DNA of 53,575 nt from Spirogloea muscicola. Lineage: Eukaryota; Streptophyta; Zygnematophyceae; Spirogloeales; Spirogloeaceae. Position 1 is the stretch's first letter. Every line of letters starts with the position of its first letter. Under the pieces are notes generated by a model. It saw only the letters and a program-made list of their open reading frames with translations. It did not search any database and was not told where the DNA came from. Positions 39,349-53,575 of this stretch are shown here, in pieces. The stretch spans positions 244,545-298,119 of the forward strand of contig WELB01000156.1 of the NCBI GenBank assembly GCA_009602725.1. Reading direction: 5' to 3'. The translations under genes and the position numbers were made by a program.

Positions 39349-40809
39349 GCTGTGCGCAGTAGTGCTAGAAGGCACGCTTGCAATCACGCGAGAAAAGCGG
39401 CTGTTTTTGCCCCAAAATGGAGAAACGAGGGGTGGCCAAAAAACTTGGAGTCAGATTTAATCTTTCAGCATCATCAGCCTTGCAATACGTGCAAGGCCAA
39501 TGGTGGCTGTGCAGTCGCAACCGGAGACACAAGATGCAACCGACCAAGCAACCGCCCTGCAGCAAGTGGAGTCCAAGTAAGACACAGAAGGATTCAGGAC
39601 TTTCGTCACATTGCAAATTTGGACCCATCTTGCTAGCGGCATTTGAGCTTACAAATGACGGCTGTGAGTGGTAGTGGTCCTTGGCAATTAATCACGTGAA
39701 ACAATGTGTATCCAATTGCATATTTATATGTAAAGGTTGCCCCTTTCAATCAGTTGTCCTTCGTCTTTGCTAGCCCGCTGCCCATTGAATCTGATCAACC
39801 CAGCATCAGCTTGCATGGTGCAGGTCCTGGCATCTTGAGGCCCTCGCTTGGCTCTCAGATGAAAGACCTGGGAGCTTGAGATTGAAGGACTCTCTGCATG
39901 TACCATCTGATTTTGCACAGGTTGTTGAGGAGTTGGCCAACAAGCAAGTGTAGCAACTTCTTAGTGCGGGGTTGCTGGGGGCCTAGCAAAAATGCATGAC
40001 AGCCTATCACTTGTAGTGGACGGGCTCGTGGAAGGACTGCATTGGGTGTTCAAATCTGGTGGCAAGGACGTTAATGAGAAGACGTGACTGGACCAGAAAT
40101 TGCTGCTGCTGCTGGCGGCGTACAGCTGTGGACTGTAAGGTCTTCAGCATGTCACCCTTGGGATTAGTAAGTCCCTGTCCTGGACCTGTTGCCCGTCCCT
40201 TGCTTAGGGCTGCGGATGGATGTGCACCTTCATATCGCCTCTGTCACTTGGCTGGCTTCACAGCGGTTTGACAGTATCAGCAGTTGTTCTTCTGATTTGG
40301 CTACTCTCAGGCTCTGACCTCTCTTGCTGGCACTTCCGTCCTTAGTTGTCGCTACATGGCATTCGCCTTTGTTGCCAGTGGCAATACAGCCGTCTCCACT
40401 AGTCGTACCCGGTCTGCAATTTATATATTGAATACCTGCTTCAGTCAAGTCACACCGTAGTTGGTCGTCGCGCTACATTGTGTAGCAGCTGGAGAGTGTT
40501 ATAACACCAGTTGGAGTTCTGTGCCCAGGCAACTAAAATTGGAGTTTAGTCTTTGTAGGGTCCTCAAGCTTGTCGAGTGGGTGATGTTGTCAATAAGTAG
40601 CACCAACTATGGAGGTCTGTTTAAGAGAAAAGTGTGACATTTTGGACGGAGGTTTGCCACAGGGTAGGATGGTTGCTTAGTAACTCCCAAGTCACCTTTG
40701 GCTGCATGGGTCCTCGTTTTTGATACCCTCCTTGAGAACATGGCAAGTCTAGGATACGCACCACGTGAGGGTATGCTTCGAGCCGAGATGAGCATGCCGA
40801 CAGCGTGTT
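39349..40809. other. Stretch without recognised gene
   Basis: Starts with the 3' UTR of the ZNHIT3-like gene. Short open frames on both strands match nothing recognised. A possible terminal exon (VVEELANKQV-stop, after a cag acceptor at about 39918) could not be linked to upstream exons. No repeats of the two retrotransposon families were seen. Confidence 0.35.
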
Positions 40810-41060
40810 CCTGGTTTTAGCAACGCCGTGTGGCAGCCTGTTTGCAGCAAGCTCAGGCTCACGCTTTGCATCAGAAAGCTGGTCGAGACACAGCTGTTGG
40901 CTTGACAGTTGCCGTCCGATTTTCGGGCACCAGTCAGTGACCTCTATGTGCTGACTCGTGTTAACTGAGCCGGGTTAGCTTAGCAGCAGATAATGTACGT
41001 CTGTCAATGTGCTCGCCTTTGTACTTGGCCACACAGGCTCTCCATCACTCAGTGCACACC
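40810..41060 (+). mobile_element. Family B retrotransposon tail
   Basis: The plus-strand copy reads (A)CLQQAQAHALHQKAGRDTA..., then SDLYVLTRV near its end and a decayed 'gagccgggttagc' instead of 'gagcgggtcaatc'. It continues with 'aatgtgctcgcctttgtacttggccacacaggc', the reverse complement of the tail at 8680-8720. Confidence 0.65.
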
Positions 41061-41560
41061 ATACACACTCCATTCACTCCACTCCATACAACACGGTCCA
41101 AAGAACCGAAAGCCGAACTGCGCTTAAACCACATACTGTGCACGAGACTACAGTGGAGGGGAGCTTAGTAACCCCGGGTTAGCAGCAGCAAGTCGGAGTA
41201 GCTTGCAGCTGCGACCTCCATACACACCCAACTTACACTCCTTTGGAAGACCTCACCTATCTTCGTTACTTGGCAACTCAGGCCCTCTCCATCACTCTCA
41301 CTGAGCTCCAATTTACACTTGGTCGGTCGGTCGCGCCGATGGGTACGTGTCGCGCGTGGTGTGTGGAACGACCGGCTTTACAACCTTGCGGGCCCGGTCG
41401 TGGTCGCCCGCCACGTAGGCGCCACATCGGACGCTGACCAGGACGCCTTTGACCCCGTTGAAGGGAGAACGGCGCTGTTTTGCCACGAGGGCGGACGGAC
41501 CTGGGCCCTCTTCCCGAGGAGGCGGCCCGGCCTGCCCGAAAAGGGAGTGCCGGCAGAGCC
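41061..41560. other. Unassigned stretch between mobile elements
   Basis: An open plus-strand frame at about 41319-41560 (containing GPVVVARHVGATSDADQDAFDP) looks protein-like in composition but belongs to no family I recognise. It runs straight into family A tail sequence, so it may be the 5' part of another broken element. Confidence 0.3.
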
Positions 41561-41945
41561 CTTGCTGCTGCCTCTGGCTCTGGCCAGGAAGATGTGGCTC
41601 TCCCAATGGGGGCAAGGGCTGTGAGAAGCCAGCCCGTAAAGAATTGACAAGGTTCGAAGGGGCCAGACTACGAGCTAAGCAGCAACTACGGGGCCAGGGG
41701 ACCCACTTCCAGGAGCCTAGCTTCTCTGACCTGAGGCTGCTTAGCAGGGGTTACTGAGTAATACGTAGCTGCTATGTTTCTTGAAGAAAAGTCTCGCCCA
41801 TTGAGGATTCAGACCTTGTCCATTCCTTTGGGCTGGCCTCTCCCAGCCACCAGTTAATCTGGCCGCGCTTGCTTCTTCGCCCATTGAGGATAGGGGCTGG
41901 AAAAGCCAGCTCAAAAAAGAAGGAACAAAGTACGAGAAGGGGGCC
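41561..41945. mobile_element. Family A tails in both orientations
   Basis: Plus: an AGRALAAASGSGQ-like segment at 41563-41600 and a separate end SDLRLLSRGY-stop at about 41756. Plus-strand hairpin at 41831-41848, followed by 'cagttaatctggccgcgctt'. A minus-strand hairpin tail (ggggctggaaaagccagctc) follows at about 41891. A minus hairpin relic lies at about 41616-41634. Confidence 0.65.
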
Positions 41946-42272
41946 AGCCTCTCCCCTCGCATGCAGATGTGTTTCCGGCTGCGATGGGCTTGCCAGCTGC
42001 ATATCTGCCGTTCTTGCGACGACGAGTTTTGGCCTTGTTGCAGCGTGCTCGGGCTAATGCTTTGCACTAGAAAGCTGGGCGAGCTCTAGTTGGTAGCAGA
42101 AGGGCTTCGAATCTGCCATCTGGTAGTCAGGCATCGATTAGCGACCCTTATGTACTGACCCGTGGTTACTGAGCGGGTCAATCTACTGTAGGTTATGTTG
42201 GTCTTAAGATGTGCTTGCCTTTGTACTTGGCCATTGGGCCTTCGTTTGTTTCAAATACACGATATTCCTTGC
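41946..42272 (+). mobile_element. Family B retrotransposon tail, well preserved
   Basis: The plus strand reads FPAAMGLPAAYLPFLRRRVLALLQRARANALH-stop, then continues in frame to DPYVLTRGY-stop at about 42170. The 3' tail to 'tttcaaatacacgatattcc' matches the reverse complement of 31604-31700 and 43995-44100. One stop codon interrupts the coding part. Confidence 0.78.
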
Positions 42273-43204: not shown

Positions 43205-43912
43205 TTAGATATTGCAGTGGTTTATATTGTTCTCGTCGGCCGCAGGCTCGCAGTCTGGCATCCAGTCGGCATCGACCGCATTGTTGTCGTCAGTGCACAT
43301 GTTGTGCAAGACGATGCACGCCCCGACATGGAGGGGCACATTCTCGAGCGGGACGTTCACCCGCTTCTGAAGTAGTCTGAACCGCCCCTTGAGATGTTCC
43401 AAAGCCTGCTCGACCACCATTCTGGAGCTTGACTGCCCGTAGTTCCTGTCCCTTTGGAACCGCCCTGCTCCGCTCCATTTTTCTTTCCCAGCTTCGAGTT
43501 GTACTGACTTGCTGTTGCTCACCCGTGGATACTGAGCTTCCGTCTGCATCATTTCGTGTCCAGCTGTGTAATTTATCCTTTTCGGCACCCGTTTTGCGGC
43601 CTTTTGGCCTTTTCTGGGCTGGCTTTGCTAGCCCCTCTTCTTCCATGGGCGGGCAATTTCTTCTATTCTTTCCTTTCCTTTTGGTGGGCTGACAACCCCT
43701 CCCGGCCTCTGTAAGGACTGACTCATCATGTAGCCGCGCGGCGGACAGGCTGCATCCCCAAGCAAAAAGTAGTCTCCGGGTCTCCCTTCCGCGCACGCCA
43801 GGCCGATCCTGCTCTGCGAGTTGCTCTCTCCTCCTCCCCGTGCAGCATCATCATGGCCACGACAGCCATAATTTTGAGCTGCAGCAAATCCGCCGCCGCC
43901 TCCGCCGGGCAC
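43205..43912 (-). pseudogene. PIF/Harbinger-like transposase fragment, interrupted
   Basis: Minus strand. The upstream part (43912-43700) reads ...RIGLACAEGRPGDYFLLGDAACPP.GYMM, resembling the second-aspartate region of DDE_Tnp_4 transposases. The downstream part (43495-43205) reads SRMVVEQALEHLKGRFRLL...ACIVLHNMC, the typical VExxxxxLKxRFRxL...LHN end with the last catalytic acidic residue. Between them lies an unrelated plus-strand retrotransposon tail, and the frames do not join. The N-terminal half of a normal transposase is not found, so the copy is inactive. Confidence 0.7.
43495..43695 (+). mobile_element. Family A tail nested inside the transposase
   Basis: From 'ttgctcacccgtggatactg' through a hairpin at 43616-43634 (one mismatch in the stem: gctagccc) to 'ccatgggcgggcaatttctt'. 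It splits the Harbinger-like frame, so it inserted after that element. Confidence 0.7.
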
Positions 43913-43984: not shown

Positions 43985-44400
43985 CCTTGTCGGCAGCGGC
44001 GGAAGATTTCCGTGTATTTGTAACTCACGAAGGCCAAAATGGCCAAGTACGAGGGCAAGCACATCTAATGACATACGTCACAGCAGATTGACCCGCTCAG
44101 TAACCACGGGTCAGTACATAAGGGTCGCTAATCGATGCCTGACTACCAGACGGCAGATTCGAAGCCTTCTGCTACCAACTAGAGCTCGCCCAGCTTTCTA
44201 GTGCAAAGCATTAGCCCGAGCACGCTGCAACAAGGCCGAAACTCGTCGTCGCAAGAACGGCAGATATGCAGCTGGCAAGCCCATCGCAGCCGGAAACACA
44301 TCTGCACGTCGTGCATAGCCTGGATTGGGAATAATCTTAAGCAGAGCGTGGAAACGAGGACCTAAACAGCCAATTATATCGATTGCAGCTGGCAGGAGGT
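43985..44400 (-). mobile_element. Family B retrotransposon tail just upstream of the phosphorylase gene
   Basis: The minus frame includes LLPAAIDIIGCLGPRFHALLKII...YARRADVFPAAMGLPAAYLPFLRRRV, then a stop and the family B tail to about 43995. It ends about 200 bp before the phosphorylase start, within the likely promoter. Confidence 0.78.
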
Positions 44401-44607
44401 GAGCATGAGGAGGGGGGAGCTTGCGCCTGCGGGGGGCGCTCGACCAGGCTGCAGGAGCGCGGCGCTGCTGCTGGGGGTTTGGAGCTGCTGCCCGGGCGCG
44501 CCGGGCAGCCAATCCGACCTGGCGAGGCGCGGGGGGGGGGGTGCCGAGGCGCTCCCTGCTCGCGAGGCGAGGGGAGCTGGATGTGACGTCCGGCGAGGTC
44601 GTGGGAT

Positions 44608-47600
44608 ATGGCGGCCGCAGCGCCCGCCCGGCCCGCGGCGCCGTGGCACCACCGGCAGCGGACTGGCGGCGGCGGTGGCGACGAGCCGAGCTCTAGCGCG
44701 CGAGGCGGCGCTACTGGCGCTGCGCTGCCGAGGAGCAGCTTCCTGCGGGGCAGCAACGAGCGGCTCATTGCCGCCTCGGCGGCGGCCGCTCATGGCGCCA
44801 CGCCTCGGCGGAGGTGCTTGCAGGCTGTCCGAGCCACTCTGGATGTGCTGCCGTCGCCCCAGGTGCTGCCGGCGACCGTTGACGTCGACAACGACTCGGA
44901 CGACGGCTACACTATCATCACTGTCACTGCGGGCAACCGCCCGGGCCTCCTCCAGACGATCACCGCCACGTTCCGCGACCTTGGGCTGGACATCGGCAAG
45001 GCGGTGGTGGACATGGACAAGGAGGGCCTGATCGCCGACAAGTTCTACATATCGGACACGGACGGGTCCAAGATTGAGGACAAGAGCGACCTGAAGCACA
45101 TTCGCACGTGCATCCTCAACGTGCTGAATCAGGACCAGAAGCGCCGGAGCGGCAAGAACCGCAGCCAGGTCAGGCCGGTGACGTTCCACTACGAGCGAGC
45201 CCACGGGCCCGACGGCTCGGTCGAGGCTCGCCGCCGCACCGACCTCCTCTACGGTCTTATGGACCAGTACATCCGGAACGACGTGATCTCTATACAGAAG
45301 AGCATCGTCGATCATGTGGAGTACACAGTTGCTCGCTCTCGCTACAAATTTGACGACTTCGAGGCCTATCAGGTCAGGCTTGCTGACTTTGAGGAACGGC
45401 CAACAGCTTGCTTGATGTTGACCTGGCTCAGTTGCAGGCGGCTAACCTGTCTCGTAAATCCTCCTGGGTGGTTCACCTTGCAGGCGACTGCATACAGTGT
45501 GCGAGATCGCCTCATCGAGAGCTGGAATGACACGCAGCAATTCTTCAAGGACCAGGATCAGAAGCGCGTGTACTACCTCTCCATGGAGTTTCTTATGGGT
45601 GATTGCTCTGAAAATTAGAGTTTTGAGAGTTTAAGCAGGTCTATGATTTCTATAGTCCAATTAGAAGAGTGGCTGATTTCAGACACGCTTCAGCGGTCTA
45701 TTGCACATGCAACAGATTCTTGCTAATTAGCTGGCAATTCGTCACCTAAGCAAAGTGTGGTGACTTCTCGTGCAGGTCGCTCCTTGCTCAACAGCATCTT
45801 CAACCTGGGCGTGAAAGACCAATATGTAGAAGCCTTGAGCCAGCTTGGTTATGACCTGGAGGTCCTTGTGGAGCAGGAGCGAGATGCAGCACTTGGCAAT
45901 GGGGGCCTTGGTCGACTTGCTGCGTGCTTCTTAGACAGCCTTGCAACACTGAACTACCCTGCCTGGGGGTAAGAAGCCCCCGGTCCAGGGGCCTTTCAAG
46001 TTTTACATTATGCGTCCTTTCAAGTTTTCGATTATGCGTGACTCGGCAGTTGCATACCGATTGCTTCAGCGAATGCCTGGCTCTACTACCATGGTGTAGT
46101 AGCACAAGCATCAATTAGAAGAATTTACTTGTCAGTGCGCGTGACCAGATTGTATTCTTTTGTTGTGCTTGGCCGAGCAGGTATGGCATCCGGTATCAGT
46201 ATGGCATGTTCCGTCAGACCATACAGGATGGTTTTCAGCACGAGCAGCCTGACTACTGGCTTACATTCGGTAACCCTTGGGAGATAGAGCGCATTCATGT
46301 GTCATATGGTGTGCGGGTAAGAGCCCGCGAGCTCATGTCCAGCTTGCAGACAGACTCTATCAAATGCTCCAGTCGACTACCTTGGCTACCTTCAGAAATA
46401 GAATAACTCAATGGTGTCAAGAAGGCCGTCTGCAGACATTGAAGTATTGAGCATAGGTTGTCGTTGCGGTTTCTCCAGTTCTACGGAGAAGTGGAGGAAT
46501 TCCAAGAGGGTAGCAGGCGGATGCGACGCTGGACAGGCGGTGATACAGTATGTCCTGATCTTATGTGCCTGGACTCTGCATTGCTAAGTTCCCCCTCACC
46601 TTGTGTGTGAGATCAATGTGGCTACCCAGGAGTTGAGCATGACGATCCTGGTCAGGTTGATTTTGCTCTTCAATGTCTGTCTGGCTTCATCTCAAGTGCT
46701 TATGCTGATAATTTGCGCCCCATCTAGGTAGAAGCTGTTGCTTATGACAACCCAATACCCGGTTTTAACACTGCCAACACAATTAACATGCGATTATGGG
46801 GTGCCAAGCCCAGTGGAGAATTTGACCTGGTTAGACTCTCTCTAGTGACTCAATAGTGACATTGCTATTTCTGCTGGTTCTTGTACTGTGCTGGCCGCTC
46901 CCAGCCATTGCCGCATTGCAAGGAGCAACCTCAATGAAAGCCGTGTTGTCCTTTCATTGTTGTCCCGTACATTCCATCGCTACGCTCCAAGGCAATTTAG
47001 TGGACTTGCATCATTGAGTCAACGGCCTCACAGCTAATGAAGCAATGGACCTATGAACCCAACGTTCTTAATTATGCAGCAATCGTTCAACACTGGCGAC
47101 TATGTTACAGCCATCCTTAGCAAGCAGCGAGCTGAGACCATCAGCAGTGTGCTGTACCCAGATGACCGCACTTACCAGGTACGAGGAGCTGCACTAATCT
47201 TGCACATTGATGTATATATCTGATCTGTGGGTGCACAGATAGCAGTGCACAGATTTATTGGATTCATCTTGTTTCTTTGAGGTCTGTGCAGGGAAAGGAG
47301 TTACGCTTGAAGCAACAGCACTTCTTTGTCTCTGCGACGCTGCAAGATGTTGTCAGGCGCTACAAAGACCAGCATACGACCTTTGACGAGTTCCCAGAGA
47401 AGGTTCGCTAAAATGGCCACTGATCTGGCGTTAGATCAATGGCATTGCGAGGCCAGCCGCTTCTACCAGTTTTAACAGGCGCCTTTGACATCCATGCTTA
47501 TTCAGCTGGAGCACCGCTTACGATGTGGGATTTGTGCTGGTTACAGGTGGCGCTTCATCTCAATGATACTCACCCTACAATGGGCATTGTTGAGCTGATG

Positions 47601-50600
47601 AGGCTCCTGGTGGACAAGGAGGGCTTGGAGTGGACACAGGCTTGGGGAATAGTTACAAGTGTCTTCTCCTTCACAAACCACGCCGTTCTGCCACAGTTTC
47701 TGGAGCGCTGCCCTGTTGAGCTTCTTGAGAATGTGTTGCCCCGTCACTTACAGGTAAAGTCTATGCCAGCTGGCTACATGAAGGCTTTGGGTGTCACAGT
47801 AGCTTGCCTGACAGTAGTGGTATTGAACACAAAAGGCATGATCCAACACGATTATGCCTTCATGTACAGAGCGCAGACTGCTAATGACATCAAGATATTT
47901 TGATGTTGCAGATCATCTATGACATCAACTTCAACTTTTTAGAGGAGCTGAAGGGGAAGTTTGGCAACGATTACAGTCGCTTAGCTCGAATGTCAATTGT
48001 GGAGGAAGGCGAGCACAAGGTGTTTATTGCACCTTTGGACCTCTCTAGTGCTTCTAAGCTTAAATCTGCTGTTGCACAAAGGAGGGCTGAGCAAGAGCAT
48101 GCCATAACACAAACAAATCTGCTTGATGTGCCACAATTCACTAGTAGTCACTGTGCTGCAGAATATTCGGATGGCCTGGTTAGCTGTAGTGGCAAGTCAT
48201 ACAATCAACGGTGTCGCTGCCATCCATTCAGATCTGATCAAAGATAAAATATTCAAGGTACATTCTGCAGAATTGGGGCCGGGAGAAACTGACCAGTAGC
48301 CCGCAGATTGCCATGTCTTTCATTGACAACTCCATTTGATTGCCACAGAGAGCCAATGTTGTAGCAGTTAGTGAGAGCCTGCAATTGAGCTGTTGGCATG
48401 AGCAAGATTGTAGCGAGACAATAGACTTTGTCAAGAAGTCAAGAGCAGCAGCCTTTCAACTTGGTATCTGACTTCGACTGCAGGACTTTTACGAGCTCTG
48501 GCCGCACAAGTTCCAGAACAAAACAAACGGTGTGACTCAGGTGAGAGTGCCTGCATGAGATCCCACTGCAACGACGTGGAGGACGTAGCTTCCACAGCAG
48601 CTGGAGGACAAACTGAGAGTGCAACTTAAGACAAGCGGACCTGCTTCTCATTTTCTGACTTGATATCACACTTTTACTTTCTCTGTGGAGACAGAGGCGG
48701 TGGCTGGCTTTCTGCAACCCGGGCTTGAAGGAGTTGCTCACGAAGTGGTTGGGGACAGAAGCCTGGATCACTGACCTGGACCTCCTCTCCAGCTTGCGCA
48801 AGCACGCTGATGACCCAGATCTCCAAGAACAATGGCACAAGGTGAGGACAAGTTTGCAGCTTTTAAGGCCTTTTCTCATCTTGTGACTGCTACCTCTCTT
48901 TTCCTGAGCATGTGGACTCCATCCTTATTAGCTTCTTCATGGCAGCAACTCTGAGGAAAGTATTTCACGTGGCTGCTCCTCATGCCACAAAAAACGGGTA
49001 TTTGGCACCCGTTATACAAGTCTTTGACTGATCTGAAGAAGATCTCAAGTAGTCTTGCTTGCAATATGGTGTTGATTGCAGGTAAGGAGGGTAAATAAGG
49101 CACGCCTTGCTGAATACGTTGAGATGAGCACGGGTGTGAAGGTGATTGGCGCCTTCCTATCTGTTCCTGCTTCTTCTACTCCCAGCCTCCGTTGCACTTG
49201 GAATGCTTATACCCGTCATATTTGGCTTCCTATTACCATTTGGGATACTGAGCTCAGCAGAGGAGAACTCTGAGCTTGGCTGATCGAACAAACATACGGT
49301 TCTCTTTGATTGCAGGTTAGCATTGATGCAATGTTTGACATCCAGGTGAAGCGCATCCATGAATACAAGCGCCAGCTTCTCAACATCCTTTCCATCATCC
49401 ACAGATACGACTGTGTCAAAGTATGGCCTGACTTGGCTCGTTACTGAGCCCCCTTGTCATATGTGGTTCTTTTCTTTGGTGAGAGATTGTCCATTTACAA
49501 GGAGACTTTTGCTCATTGACTTGCTGCATTCACCATTGTCTGTGCACCAGCACATGTCTGCCGAGGAAAAGAGGAGAGTTGTGCCTCGAGTATGCATCTT
49601 CGGCGGCAAGGGCGCACCTGGCTACGACATGGCCATGAAGATTATCAAGCTCGTGAGCTGCGTGGGTGAGAAGGTCAACAACGACCCTGACATTGGAAAC
49701 CTCCTAAAGATTGTGAGTGGCTGCAGCATACTCCGTCCTCTTTCATGATCTCAGCTTTGAGTGGGATATGACAGGTACTTTGTCCATGTGCAATCTCAGC
49801 CCCAATGACAGGGATAGACAGCTGTCTGTTCATCTCCGTCTATTCTTGGATCTTTTATGTGCTTTGGAAAGTCCATAGTTTGACTATGGTCAGATGACAA
49901 TTTTGTACTGGCCAGGTTTTCCTGCCCGATTACAATGTGTCAGCAGCAGAGGTTATCATCCCTGGCAGTGACCTTTCTCAGCATATCAGGTGGGAAGTTC
50001 TTTCTCAACGTTCTGGTTCCTCAGAAGTCGCGAATGGATTGACCCATCATTCTACATCGTCAGCTCTGCAAGGGCTCTCTCTATTGCTCTTGGGCGACTG
50101 GAAATGCACAATGTTGCTGGTTGGGTGGATCCATCCTCTTTCCTGAAGTTGCCGCTTGAATGTGTCTTGCAGCACGGCTGGGAATGAGGCATCTGGCACA
50201 GGCAACATGAAGTTTGCGATGAATGGTTGCCTTATTCTGGGCACGCTGGATGGCGCAAACGTGGAGATCCGGGAAGAGATTGGCGAAGGAAACATGGTCC
50301 GAATGCTCAGAGCACCGTCATGCGCGTCTGACTGACCTTTCATGCGCATCTGACTGAGCTTTTGTGGCTTGATCTAGGCTTTGGCTACACAATGCACTGG
50401 TGGGAGACCTTGATCCGCTTGGTCATGTTCTAAGCCCTAATTTATATGTATGACTCCCCAGTTCCTCTTTGGCGCGGAGGCGCACGAGGTACCACAGTTG
50501 CAGGAGGAGCGGCCGCGATTCATACCCTGCCGAGAATTTTCACGCGTCATCGGGTGTGCATTGTCCCCTGGCTGCGCATGGCTAGTACTCATCAAGCAGC

Positions 50601-51194
50601 AGCAGGGACGCACTACCTTGCTGTCTCGCCTGCTCTCACAAGCCTTGCTGGACGAGCTCAAGCTGCCTTGCCTGCCTTGCTGCGGCTTCCAGCTCCCCCT
50701 CCTTGCGGTGGCCTTCAGGTCACACTGCTCCCAGAGTCTTGCTTAGCATGTCCAACTTACCATTATACTCTGTGCAAGCAGGATGATCCGCAACGGCGAG
50801 TTCGGTTGGCCCGAGTACTTTGCGCCACTGTGCGAGGCGCTGGAGCAGAAGGACTTCTACCTGCTGGCCAATGACTTCCCGAGCTACCTCAAGGCGCAGG
50901 TTTTGCTGCACACTGTTGCCCATCCTCTCCACTGTCTGAGACTATCCTCAATGAGGCTTCAGTATCTGCCCCCTTCTTCCGTCTCTGTGCATGCTTGCAA
51001 GGCCAGAGCTCATCGGCTCTTGACTGCGGGTCTGGCTGCAGGCGGCTGTTGACGCGGCATACGTCGACCGCAAGCGGTGGTGGCGCATGAGCATCCTCAG
51101 CACCGCAGGCTCGGGCAAGTTCTCGTCAGACCGGACCATCCACGAGTATGCAAAGGAGATCTGGGGCGTCCGCCCGCTCAAGCGGCCTATCTGA
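44608..51194 (+). CDS. Alpha-glucan (starch) phosphorylase with N-terminal ACT domain, 21 exons
   Basis: Releases glucose-1-phosphate from alpha-1,4-glucan, using PLP. Exons: 44608-45372, 45484-45598, 45776-45968, 46181-46316, 46479-46547, 46728-46829, 47080-47178, 47292-47402, 47547-47753, 47912-48019, 48162-48257, 48484-48540, 48695-48841, 49082-49141, 49316-49420, 49551-49712, 49916-49989, 50173-50296, 50462-50553, 50782-50899, 51042-51194; in phase to 1030 residues. Residues 1-80 are Ala/Arg/Ser-rich (probable plastid transit peptide). Residues 89-175 form an ACT domain resembling plant ACR11/ACR12. The catalytic part runs from about 195 to the end. The PLP lysine is K882 in [13 protein letters not shown]. 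The long insertion of land-plant PHO1 is absent. ACT and the phosphorylase start share exon 1, so the fusion is not a splicing assumption. Confidence 0.96.
46884..46935 (+). mobile_element. Family A hairpin relic inside a phosphorylase intron
   Basis: 'gtgctggccgctcccagcc' plus the following 'attgccgcattgcaaggagc' resembles the family A tail pieces at 8230-8250 and 21416-21440. It is a short solo fragment in intron 6, shared only over about 50 bp. Confidence 0.45.
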
Positions 51195-52744: not shown

Positions 52745-53443
52745 AGGGAGGGGGAGGTCATGGACCTGGCGCGGCGCGCAGTGCCGGGGGACAGCCGTGC
52801 CTCCGGCGCCCGCCGCCGCTTGCCCGCCGGCGAGCGCGTTGCGGCGCTGCCCACAACCGCCGGCTTGTGCCGCTGCAGCTGGCCCAGCAGCAACTCCCTC
52901 CTCAGGAATGCTGCCGGGCCGCCCTCATCTCTGGGCTTGACAGCGCCCGCCTCTGCCTCCGCCACGGCTGCCGCCGCTCCCGCTCGGCAGCCGTCAGCGT
53001 CGCGGAGGCCCTGCCGCGTTGGCGGCGGCGGCTCGGTCGCCGACGGCAGCCACTCCCAGCAGCCGCGCTGCCGCGGGCGCTGCCACACGCGCCTCCGCCG
53101 TGACTCGCAAGTGAGCCATTCCGTGCTTGCCTCCCCCCAGCCCCAGCCAGCAGCTAGCAGCAGCAATACATTCATTGCGATGCAACTTGGCCTTGACCCA
53201 AGGCCCTGGCATATGATTTGGGCTCCTGCCAAAGACTGCAGTGGGGTAAAGGCACCACCAGCGCGAAAATTGCTGCCCCTCTGGACTGCTGCTCGCTGCA
53301 AAAGTGGCCGATGGTGCCTGGTGAAGGAGTGCCCTGGCCACCCCACCAGGGCGAGCTTGCAGCCACGCTGACGAGACAGACCCCTTGTGCCCCGGTGCTC
53401 GGCGACCGCGCCTGATGGGGCCCCTTGGTGGCGGCATGCACAG
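52745..53443. other. GC-rich stretch before the MYB exon
   Basis: Open in most frames on both strands owing to composition. A plus-strand frame from ATG 52760, ending at a donor-like site near 53109, could be the 5' exon of the MYB gene, but no first-repeat tryptophans are seen between it and 53443. Confidence 0.3.
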
Positions 53444-53575
53444 AGCTGTCGCCTGAGGTGGTTCAGCTACCTGGACCCATCAGTGAAGCGGGACCCGTTC
53501 AGCCCAGAGGAGGACAGCCTGCTCATGGAGATGGTGTCGTGGGACAAGGGCACCAAGTGGACCGCCCTCGCCGCC
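53444..53575 (+). CDS. MYB DNA-binding protein, internal exon, cut by the window edge
   Basis: After a cag acceptor the frame reads SCRLRWFSYLDPSVKRDPF, then SPEEDSLLMEMVSWDKGTKW. This is the end of one MYB repeat (recognition helix SCRLRWFxxLDP) and the start of the next (PFSPEED...W), the R2-R3 junction of R2R3-type or three-repeat MYB transcription factors. The reading stays open to the end of the window. The first half of the preceding repeat was not found upstream and is probably on a more distant exon. Confidence 0.82.

Follow-up and report, generated by a model that had tools for sequence, protein, structure and literature searches.

The window analysed here, a stretch of 53,575 nucleotides from Spirogloea muscicola (contig WELB01000156.1, positions 244,545 to 298,119), contains on its forward strand a gene that joins an ACT domain to an alpha-glucan phosphorylase. 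The open frame extends from 44587 to 45618 (+), with the first methionine codon at 44608. Exon 1 (44608-45372, +) codes in a single frame for 255 amino acids, which comprise a transit-like N-terminus, the ACT domain and the first 32 phosphorylase residues. The complete gene model, spliced by hand from genomic DNA, contains 21 exons, ends at 51194 and gives one frame of 1030 amino acids; its 20 introns are all of the GT-AG type. The main features are as follows.

44608..44868, + strand: N-terminal region of about 87 residues, rich in Ala, Arg, Gly and Ser and transit-peptide-like (translation)
44905..45195, + strand: ACT domain, residues about 100-196, assigned to the GlnD C-terminal type (Pfam, NCBIfam GlnD models, AlphaFold2, fold searches, dN/dS)
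45277..45372, + strand: start of the phosphorylase homology, residues 224-255, within exon 1 (alignment to solved phosphorylases)
44608..45372, + strand: exon 1 (translation, splicing; GT donor retained in three of three genomic copies)
45484..51194, + strand: phosphorylase exons 2-21 overall (hand splicing, PF00343)
45484-45598, 45776-45968, 46181-46316, 46479-46547, 46728-46829, 47080-47178, + strand: exons 2-7 (hand-spliced)
47292-47402, 47547-47753, 47912-48019, 48162-48257, 48484-48540, 48695-48841, + strand: exons 8-13 (hand-spliced)
49082-49141, 49316-49420, 49551-49712, 49916-49989, 50173-50296, + strand: exons 14-18 (hand-spliced)
50462-50553, 50782-50899, 51042-51194, + strand: exons 19-21 (hand-spliced)
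50173..50296, + strand: exon 18, with a 10-residue motif containing the lysine of the pyridoxal-phosphate (PLP) site (translation aligned to 4bqe)

Gene structure and the phosphorylase part

A sequence-only reading of this DNA had proposed the fusion within exon 1, and the single open frame, the Pfam, NCBIfam and TIGR02093 matches and the phosphorylase alignment all bear it out. The transit-like start that it described is likewise seen in the translation; this region is less conserved across three genomic copies than the remainder of exon 1, and from its composition we infer a plastid location of the protein. The limits of the ACT domain, given there as residues 89-175, are close to those found here. 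As the join between the ACT domain and the phosphorylase lies within one exon, two separate transcripts are very unlikely, and a reading as two adjacent genes is rejected. Intron 1 is 111 bases long, a multiple of three, and free of stop codons; its inferred removal is supported by the solved phosphorylases, which align over the join of exons 1 and 2 without an insertion.

The spliced protein matches PF00343 with 1034 bits over the whole model (positions 1-713 of 713) and TIGR02093 with 1126 bits from residue 228 or so to near the protein end, and residues 224-255, encoded by exon 1, can already be aligned to solved phosphorylases. With 4bqe, the cytosolic phosphorylase 2, which we take to be Arabidopsis PHS2, the phosphorylase part shares 54% identity. 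The active-site and PLP-lysine motifs, whose roles we assume to be those of the aligned enzymes, are intact in alignments to 4bqe and to 8r48, an L-1 isozyme and presumably the potato enzyme; the lysine of the exon 18 motif is taken to be the pyridoxal-phosphate site of known phosphorylases. By its full-length family match and its catalytic and PLP motifs the predicted enzyme is a GT35 alpha-glucan phosphorylase. The L78/L80 insertion is absent before KNIRMA in the alignment to solved phosphorylases, and the alignments of the plastid-type chains 8r48 and 9lpw to the gene break at this KNIRMA/L78 place. Chains of muscle glycogen phosphorylase can be aligned only from about residue 24 of 2pyd onward; thus the ACT domain occupies the place of their approximately 23 N-terminal residues, which include Ser14. 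Animal glycogen phosphorylase belongs to the same family and is matched over the whole enzyme, and it is not known to have an ACT domain. Its control, as described in excerpts of a 2025 review, is by phosphorylation of Ser14 (in a passage on the liver form) and by AMP (PMC12267944).

A dispersed repeat lies just upstream of the gene (44001-44398), with at least 40 nearly full-length matches including its own among the 40 of 2682 candidates that were scored. DNA similar to this repeat also precedes phosphorylase genes on contigs C75, C77, C7 and C109. The region 40001-42000 is likewise rich in dispersed repeats; scoring of 40 out of 7497 candidates showed its segment at about 40693-41059 to match sequence on many contigs at 74-83%. 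A fragment of a DDE_Tnp_4 transposase (43205-43627, - strand, E 9.4e-10) lies upstream of the gene. Further downstream, degenerate CCCTAAA-like repeats of the telomere type were noticed by eye within the contig (52120-52210), and a Myb-type DNA-binding domain (53372-53575, + strand, PF13921, E 2e-6) runs off the window end.

Sequence and predicted fold of the ACT domain

Two Pfam models match the ACT part of exon 1, both just below their curated cut-off of 27 bits: ACT_ACR9_3rd (PF24931) at residues 91-169 (7.7e-6, 26.3 bits) and ACT (PF01842) at residues 102-152 (1.5e-4, 21.9 bits). Of the pair of domains by which the sequence-only reading would recognize the fusion, PF00343 is matched in full length and PF01842 falls under its cut-off. 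In the genome-wide search PF24931 scored 28.3 bits for the ACT part, against the cut-off of 27. With PF01842 the genome search gave sub-threshold rows for the C75 and C77 copies; the window copy and those on C281 and C109 were not among its matches. Two ACR9-like ACT genes elsewhere in the genome (C12:213162-213680 and C230:179542-180058) lie above the PF24931 cut-off.

The NCBIfam search is more specific. All eight families matched by residues 89-175 at E<=0.1 are GlnD models, the best at 1.2e-13. In six of the eight the match falls at the extreme C-terminus of the model, where the last ACT domain lies; for PRK01759 and PRK05007, both weak (0.0014), it lies approximately 100 positions before the model end. 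The nucleotide transferase and hydrolase domains of GlnD were not matched in NCBIfam, whose whole-protein cut-offs are far off, and the linker (residues 176-255) matched no NCBIfam family. On these profile matches we assign the ACT part to the GlnD C-terminal type. The sequence-only reading had noted a resemblance to plant ACR proteins, and the likeness to a plant ACR/GlnD-type ACT domain holds. Its choice of ACR11/ACR12 as the closest resemblance is not borne out by these searches, in which the nearest profiles were those of GlnD and ACR9; no ACR11 or ACR12 profile was among the Pfam and NCBIfam matches. The motif NRPGLL sits in the beta1-alpha1 loop of the domain and is identical in all five ACT copies of the genome, described below. 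According to excerpts of one paper, the glycine-bearing loop of ACT domains falls where PGDH has its serine site (PMC3173338).

The AlphaFold2 model, computed from the single sequence of residues 89-255, contains a short strand (90-94), a strand (102-107), a helix (112-124), two strands (128-136 and 142-149), a helix (159-181) and a strand (192-194). After the short extra strand this gives the order strand-helix-strand-strand-helix-strand, so the ACT-like fold suggested by the sequence-only reading is recovered at moderate confidence. Up to model residue 90 the pLDDT blocks lie at 65-78; from residue 102 on, the last strand included, they fall below 50, and the fourth ACT strand (about residues 192-194) is thus weakly predicted. 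Foldseek against the PDB placed ACT domains in the top rows, although only one of 1570 rows reached E<=0.001: the first four belong to the ACT-like domain of GL3, which we take to be a plant bHLH factor (best 5.9e-4), followed by D-3-phosphoglycerate dehydrogenase and aspartate kinase. VIA-align gave Z scores up to 8.4 for regulatory domains of aspartokinases and 8.3 for GL3, in third place; some non-ACT folds (a permutant of ribosomal protein S6 and a viral RNA polymerase) reached 8.0. The predicted fold is therefore supportive of an ACT domain, not decisive.

Searches against PDB sequences were less informative. Exon 1 gave a single chance row in phmmer (E 0.46). A profile of the five ACT sequences matched calmodulins with E-values of 0.0074 and upward; ACT proteins were absent from the best 60 of its 138 rows. 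We regard the calmodulin matches as chance, since the loop spacing of EF-hands is absent from the ACT stretch and no Pfam EF-hand model matched exon 1 at E<=1; an EF-hand reading was rejected on the same grounds. A scan of the genome_contigs set with the ACT-plus-linker alignment yielded 43 pattern matches, none of them confirmed; the patterns lay in the linker and the phosphorylase start, so that the scan says little on prokaryotic ACT domains.

Two types of ACT-phosphorylase in one genome

The assembly (153 Mb) contains PF00343 matches on at least 11 contigs (C4, C7, C27, C35, C75, C77, C106, C109, C156, C281 and C352), a lower bound, as 63 of 123 candidates were scored. According to local profiles an ACT domain is present in five of the 11 loci. 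In the other six these profiles detected none, and a very diverged ACT domain could escape them; one of the six, L011, gave a single weak row (E 0.9) on the strand opposite the gene. For another of the six, the C27 locus (L009), the negative result is provisional, because a 405-base assembly gap immediately precedes its phosphorylase part.

Contigs C75 and C77 carry near-copies of the window gene, which together with it form type A. Their ACT-plus-linker parts are 98% identical to that of the window gene and their introns 83 and 89%, and the three genomic copies retain the frame as well as every one of the 20 splice-site pairs. Over the final 168 codons of exon 1, pairwise dN/dS among the three was 0.036, 0.047 and 0.010; it was 0.031, 0.030 and 0.019 for exons 2-21, and 0.043, 0.102 and 0.020 for the ACT domain (residues 101-175), the last set being rough since it rests on so few amino-acid changes (2.5, 3.5 and 1). 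With an intact frame under purifying selection, a pseudogene is rejected. Copy L006 (1313-1400) has no in-frame methionine ahead of the ACT domain; an ambiguous base close to a run of Gs may mask the frame. Comparison of the segment 40001-51700 with C75 and C77 gives three matching regions, mostly at 83-91% DNA identity, with the surroundings of the gene matched too. The other phosphorylase types also come as two or three copies, 98.5-99.2% identical in protein sequence over the compared columns, and several haplotypes or subgenomes may be present in the assembly.

The loci on C281 (L008, 1044-2066) and C109 (L007, minus strand) encode a second, diverged ACT-phosphorylase, termed type B, in which the ACT domain is interrupted by an intron. 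Types A and B are 33-35% identical over 76 ACT columns and share NRPGLL. The type B domain is easily missed: a protein search gave its linker only, and tblastn recovered part of it in both L007 and L008; local profiles of each type find the ACT domain of the other. Both type B copies matched GlnD in NCBIfam (3.1e-14 and 6.4e-15), and all eight families at E<=0.1 are again GlnD models. The fourth ACT strand was not found in type B.

A FastTree phylogeny was built from the 11 loci with 4bqe and 8r48 as anchors (807 columns). The rows L007-L014 were put together from the best match to each exon and span 483-725 of these columns; as one best piece was kept per exon, the ACT columns of L007 are empty. 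Types A and B group together (0.996) and are joined by the C27 gene (1.000). The genes on C4 and C7 fall with 4bqe (0.958) and those on C35, C106 and C352 on the 8r48 side (0.980), so that within this genome the ACT genes stand apart from the PHO1-like and PHO2-like ones. From this grouping, three kinds of enzyme appear to occur side by side in the alga: PHO1-like, PHO2-like and ACT-bearing PHO3-like. Membership of the window gene in PHO1 or PHO2 is rejected on the tree and the absent L78.

Relation to known enzymes and possible regulation

The sequence-only reading knew of no earlier description of this architecture for plant or animal phosphorylases. That view has to be abandoned, as in the open-licence literature Qin et al. 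2016 clearly report an ACT domain in a phosphorylase, together with the same amino-acid idea; we draw on excerpts of that paper (PMC5005325). Among the papers listed by full-text searches it is the one clear report, the others that name both an ACT domain and a phosphorylase doing so once or twice each. PHO3 of Lotus japonicus has an N-terminal ACT domain, lacks L78 and is located in the chloroplast; PHOB/STA4 of Chlamydomonas reinhardtii, also reported from the plastid, is said to carry the same ACT domain, and a PHO3 isoform in some dicots is noted with reference to Wu et al. 2015 (PMC5005325). Like these enzymes, the window gene combines an ACT domain at the N-terminus with a phosphorylase that lacks L78, and it groups outside both PHO1 and PHO2, a likeness drawn from their published descriptions. 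Their ACT domain is named there as superfamily cl09141, not as a GlnD type (PMC5005325). The fusion itself is therefore not new; new here are the GlnD-type assignment of its ACT domain, the second diverged type of ACT-phosphorylase, and the presence of the domain in five of 11 loci.

In crude E. coli extracts full-length Lotus PHO3 gave 2.5-fold more phosphorolysis activity than controls, and the purified protein had no detectable activity; Qin et al. argue that PHO3 activity needs an extra factor and suggest that PHOB might be regulated by one or more amino acids (PMC5005325). The starch effect of PHO3 overexpression was unchanged by nitrogen supply, and growth was worse under nitrogen deficiency (PMC5005325). 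In Chlamydomonas the loss of PhoB lowers starch, an effect reportedly confined to nitrogen starvation (PMC4919380, in excerpt), so the sequence-only proposal that starch breakdown responds to a nitrogen signal was too narrow in speaking of breakdown. In the excerpts of the 2025 review of plastidial phosphorylases, no amino acid is seen in the effector table; the review as a whole names PhoB and PHO3 once each (PMC12267944).

GlnD is the best NCBIfam match for both ACT types. Excerpts describe it as a glutamine sensor, possibly via its C-terminal ACT domains (PMC3173338). It is a bacterial nucleotide transferase/hydrolase with two such domains at the C-terminus (PMC3173338), whereas here one ACT domain precedes a phosphorylase. 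The plastid ACT-repeat proteins ACR11 and ACR12 (PMC3173338, PMC4944146, both in excerpt) share with the window gene a GlnD-like ACT domain and would also share its predicted plastid location and nitrogen context. They contain two ACT domains and no enzyme part, unlike the single ACT stretch followed by a phosphorylase in the window gene, and ACR11 acts as a separate protein on Fd-GOGAT (PMC4944146).

We conclude that the gene very probably encodes a plastid alpha-glucan phosphorylase of the PHO3/PHOB type. If so, the odds that its ACT domain is a ligand switch are balanced or marginally favourable; taken together, PHO3/PHOB-type identity and an allosteric ligand switch stand at an even chance. 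Phosphorylases are dimers, and pairing and amino-acid binding are common among ACT domains, so that a ligand on the paired ACT domains could shift activity. The ACT domain stands directly before the first phosphorylase helices, where the animal enzyme has a short regulatory N-terminal tail. A small nitrogen metabolite, with glutamine as the best guess because the domain matches GlnD, would bind at the ACT-ACT interface of the phosphorylase dimer and shift its activity as an allosteric switch, and carbon flow via starch would thereby track nitrogen status. The ligand, the dimer arrangement and the direction of the effect are supposed here. The purified Fd-GOGAT-ACR11 complex, in which no bound amino acid was found, advises caution about any ACT ligand (PMC4944146, in excerpt). 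The inactivity of purified Lotus PHO3 and the nitrogen-independent starch effect of its overexpression (PMC5005325) also weigh against the switch, as do the sub-threshold Pfam scores, the calmodulin rows of the ACT profile, the moderate fold model and the fourth strand not found in type B.

The main alternative is that the ACT domain binds no metabolite and is an interaction or dimerisation module that docks a partner, for example a branching enzyme or another starch enzyme. We consider it less probable than the switch and still a serious candidate. It draws on the GL3 domain in the leading rows of both fold searches, on the best Pfam row of type B, which is a plant bHLH ACT-like model (1.6e-5), and on the suggestion cited by Qin et al. 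that PHOB is part of a multienzyme complex, along with the extra factor argued for PHO3 (PMC5005325). Against docking, GlnD profiles far outscore the bHLH ACT-like model in both types, and the loop said to coincide with the PGDH serine site (PMC3173338) is invariant in all five copies. It is very unlikely that the ACT domain is a functionless relic, be it decayed or neutral: the fourth strand is seemingly missing in type B, but the domain is retained in two diverged gene types, and its dN/dS of 0.02-0.10 in three pairs is near that of the enzyme, albeit with few changes. An artefact, by which two genes were joined in reading or by misassembly, could appeal to the stop-free intron 1 and is nearly negligible given a join that sits inside a single exon on three contigs, with introns 11-17% different from those of the window, the same domain order in type B, and the uninterrupted alignment over exons 1 and 2.

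Returning to the ligand switch, a stronger form of it is tentative and, in our judgement, somewhat unlikely: a GlnD-type sensor built into two diverged versions of a plastid phosphorylase, through which glutamine would set starch turnover directly, without PII or kinases. The ACT domains of types A and B may read different ligands or different ranges. If the domain does bind glutamine, a one-protein link would lead from nitrogen status to plastid starch, which could help to explain why the effect of PhoB loss in Chlamydomonas is reported as limited to nitrogen starvation (PMC4919380). The GlnD match would narrow the "one or more amino acids" suggested by Qin et al. to a testable ligand.
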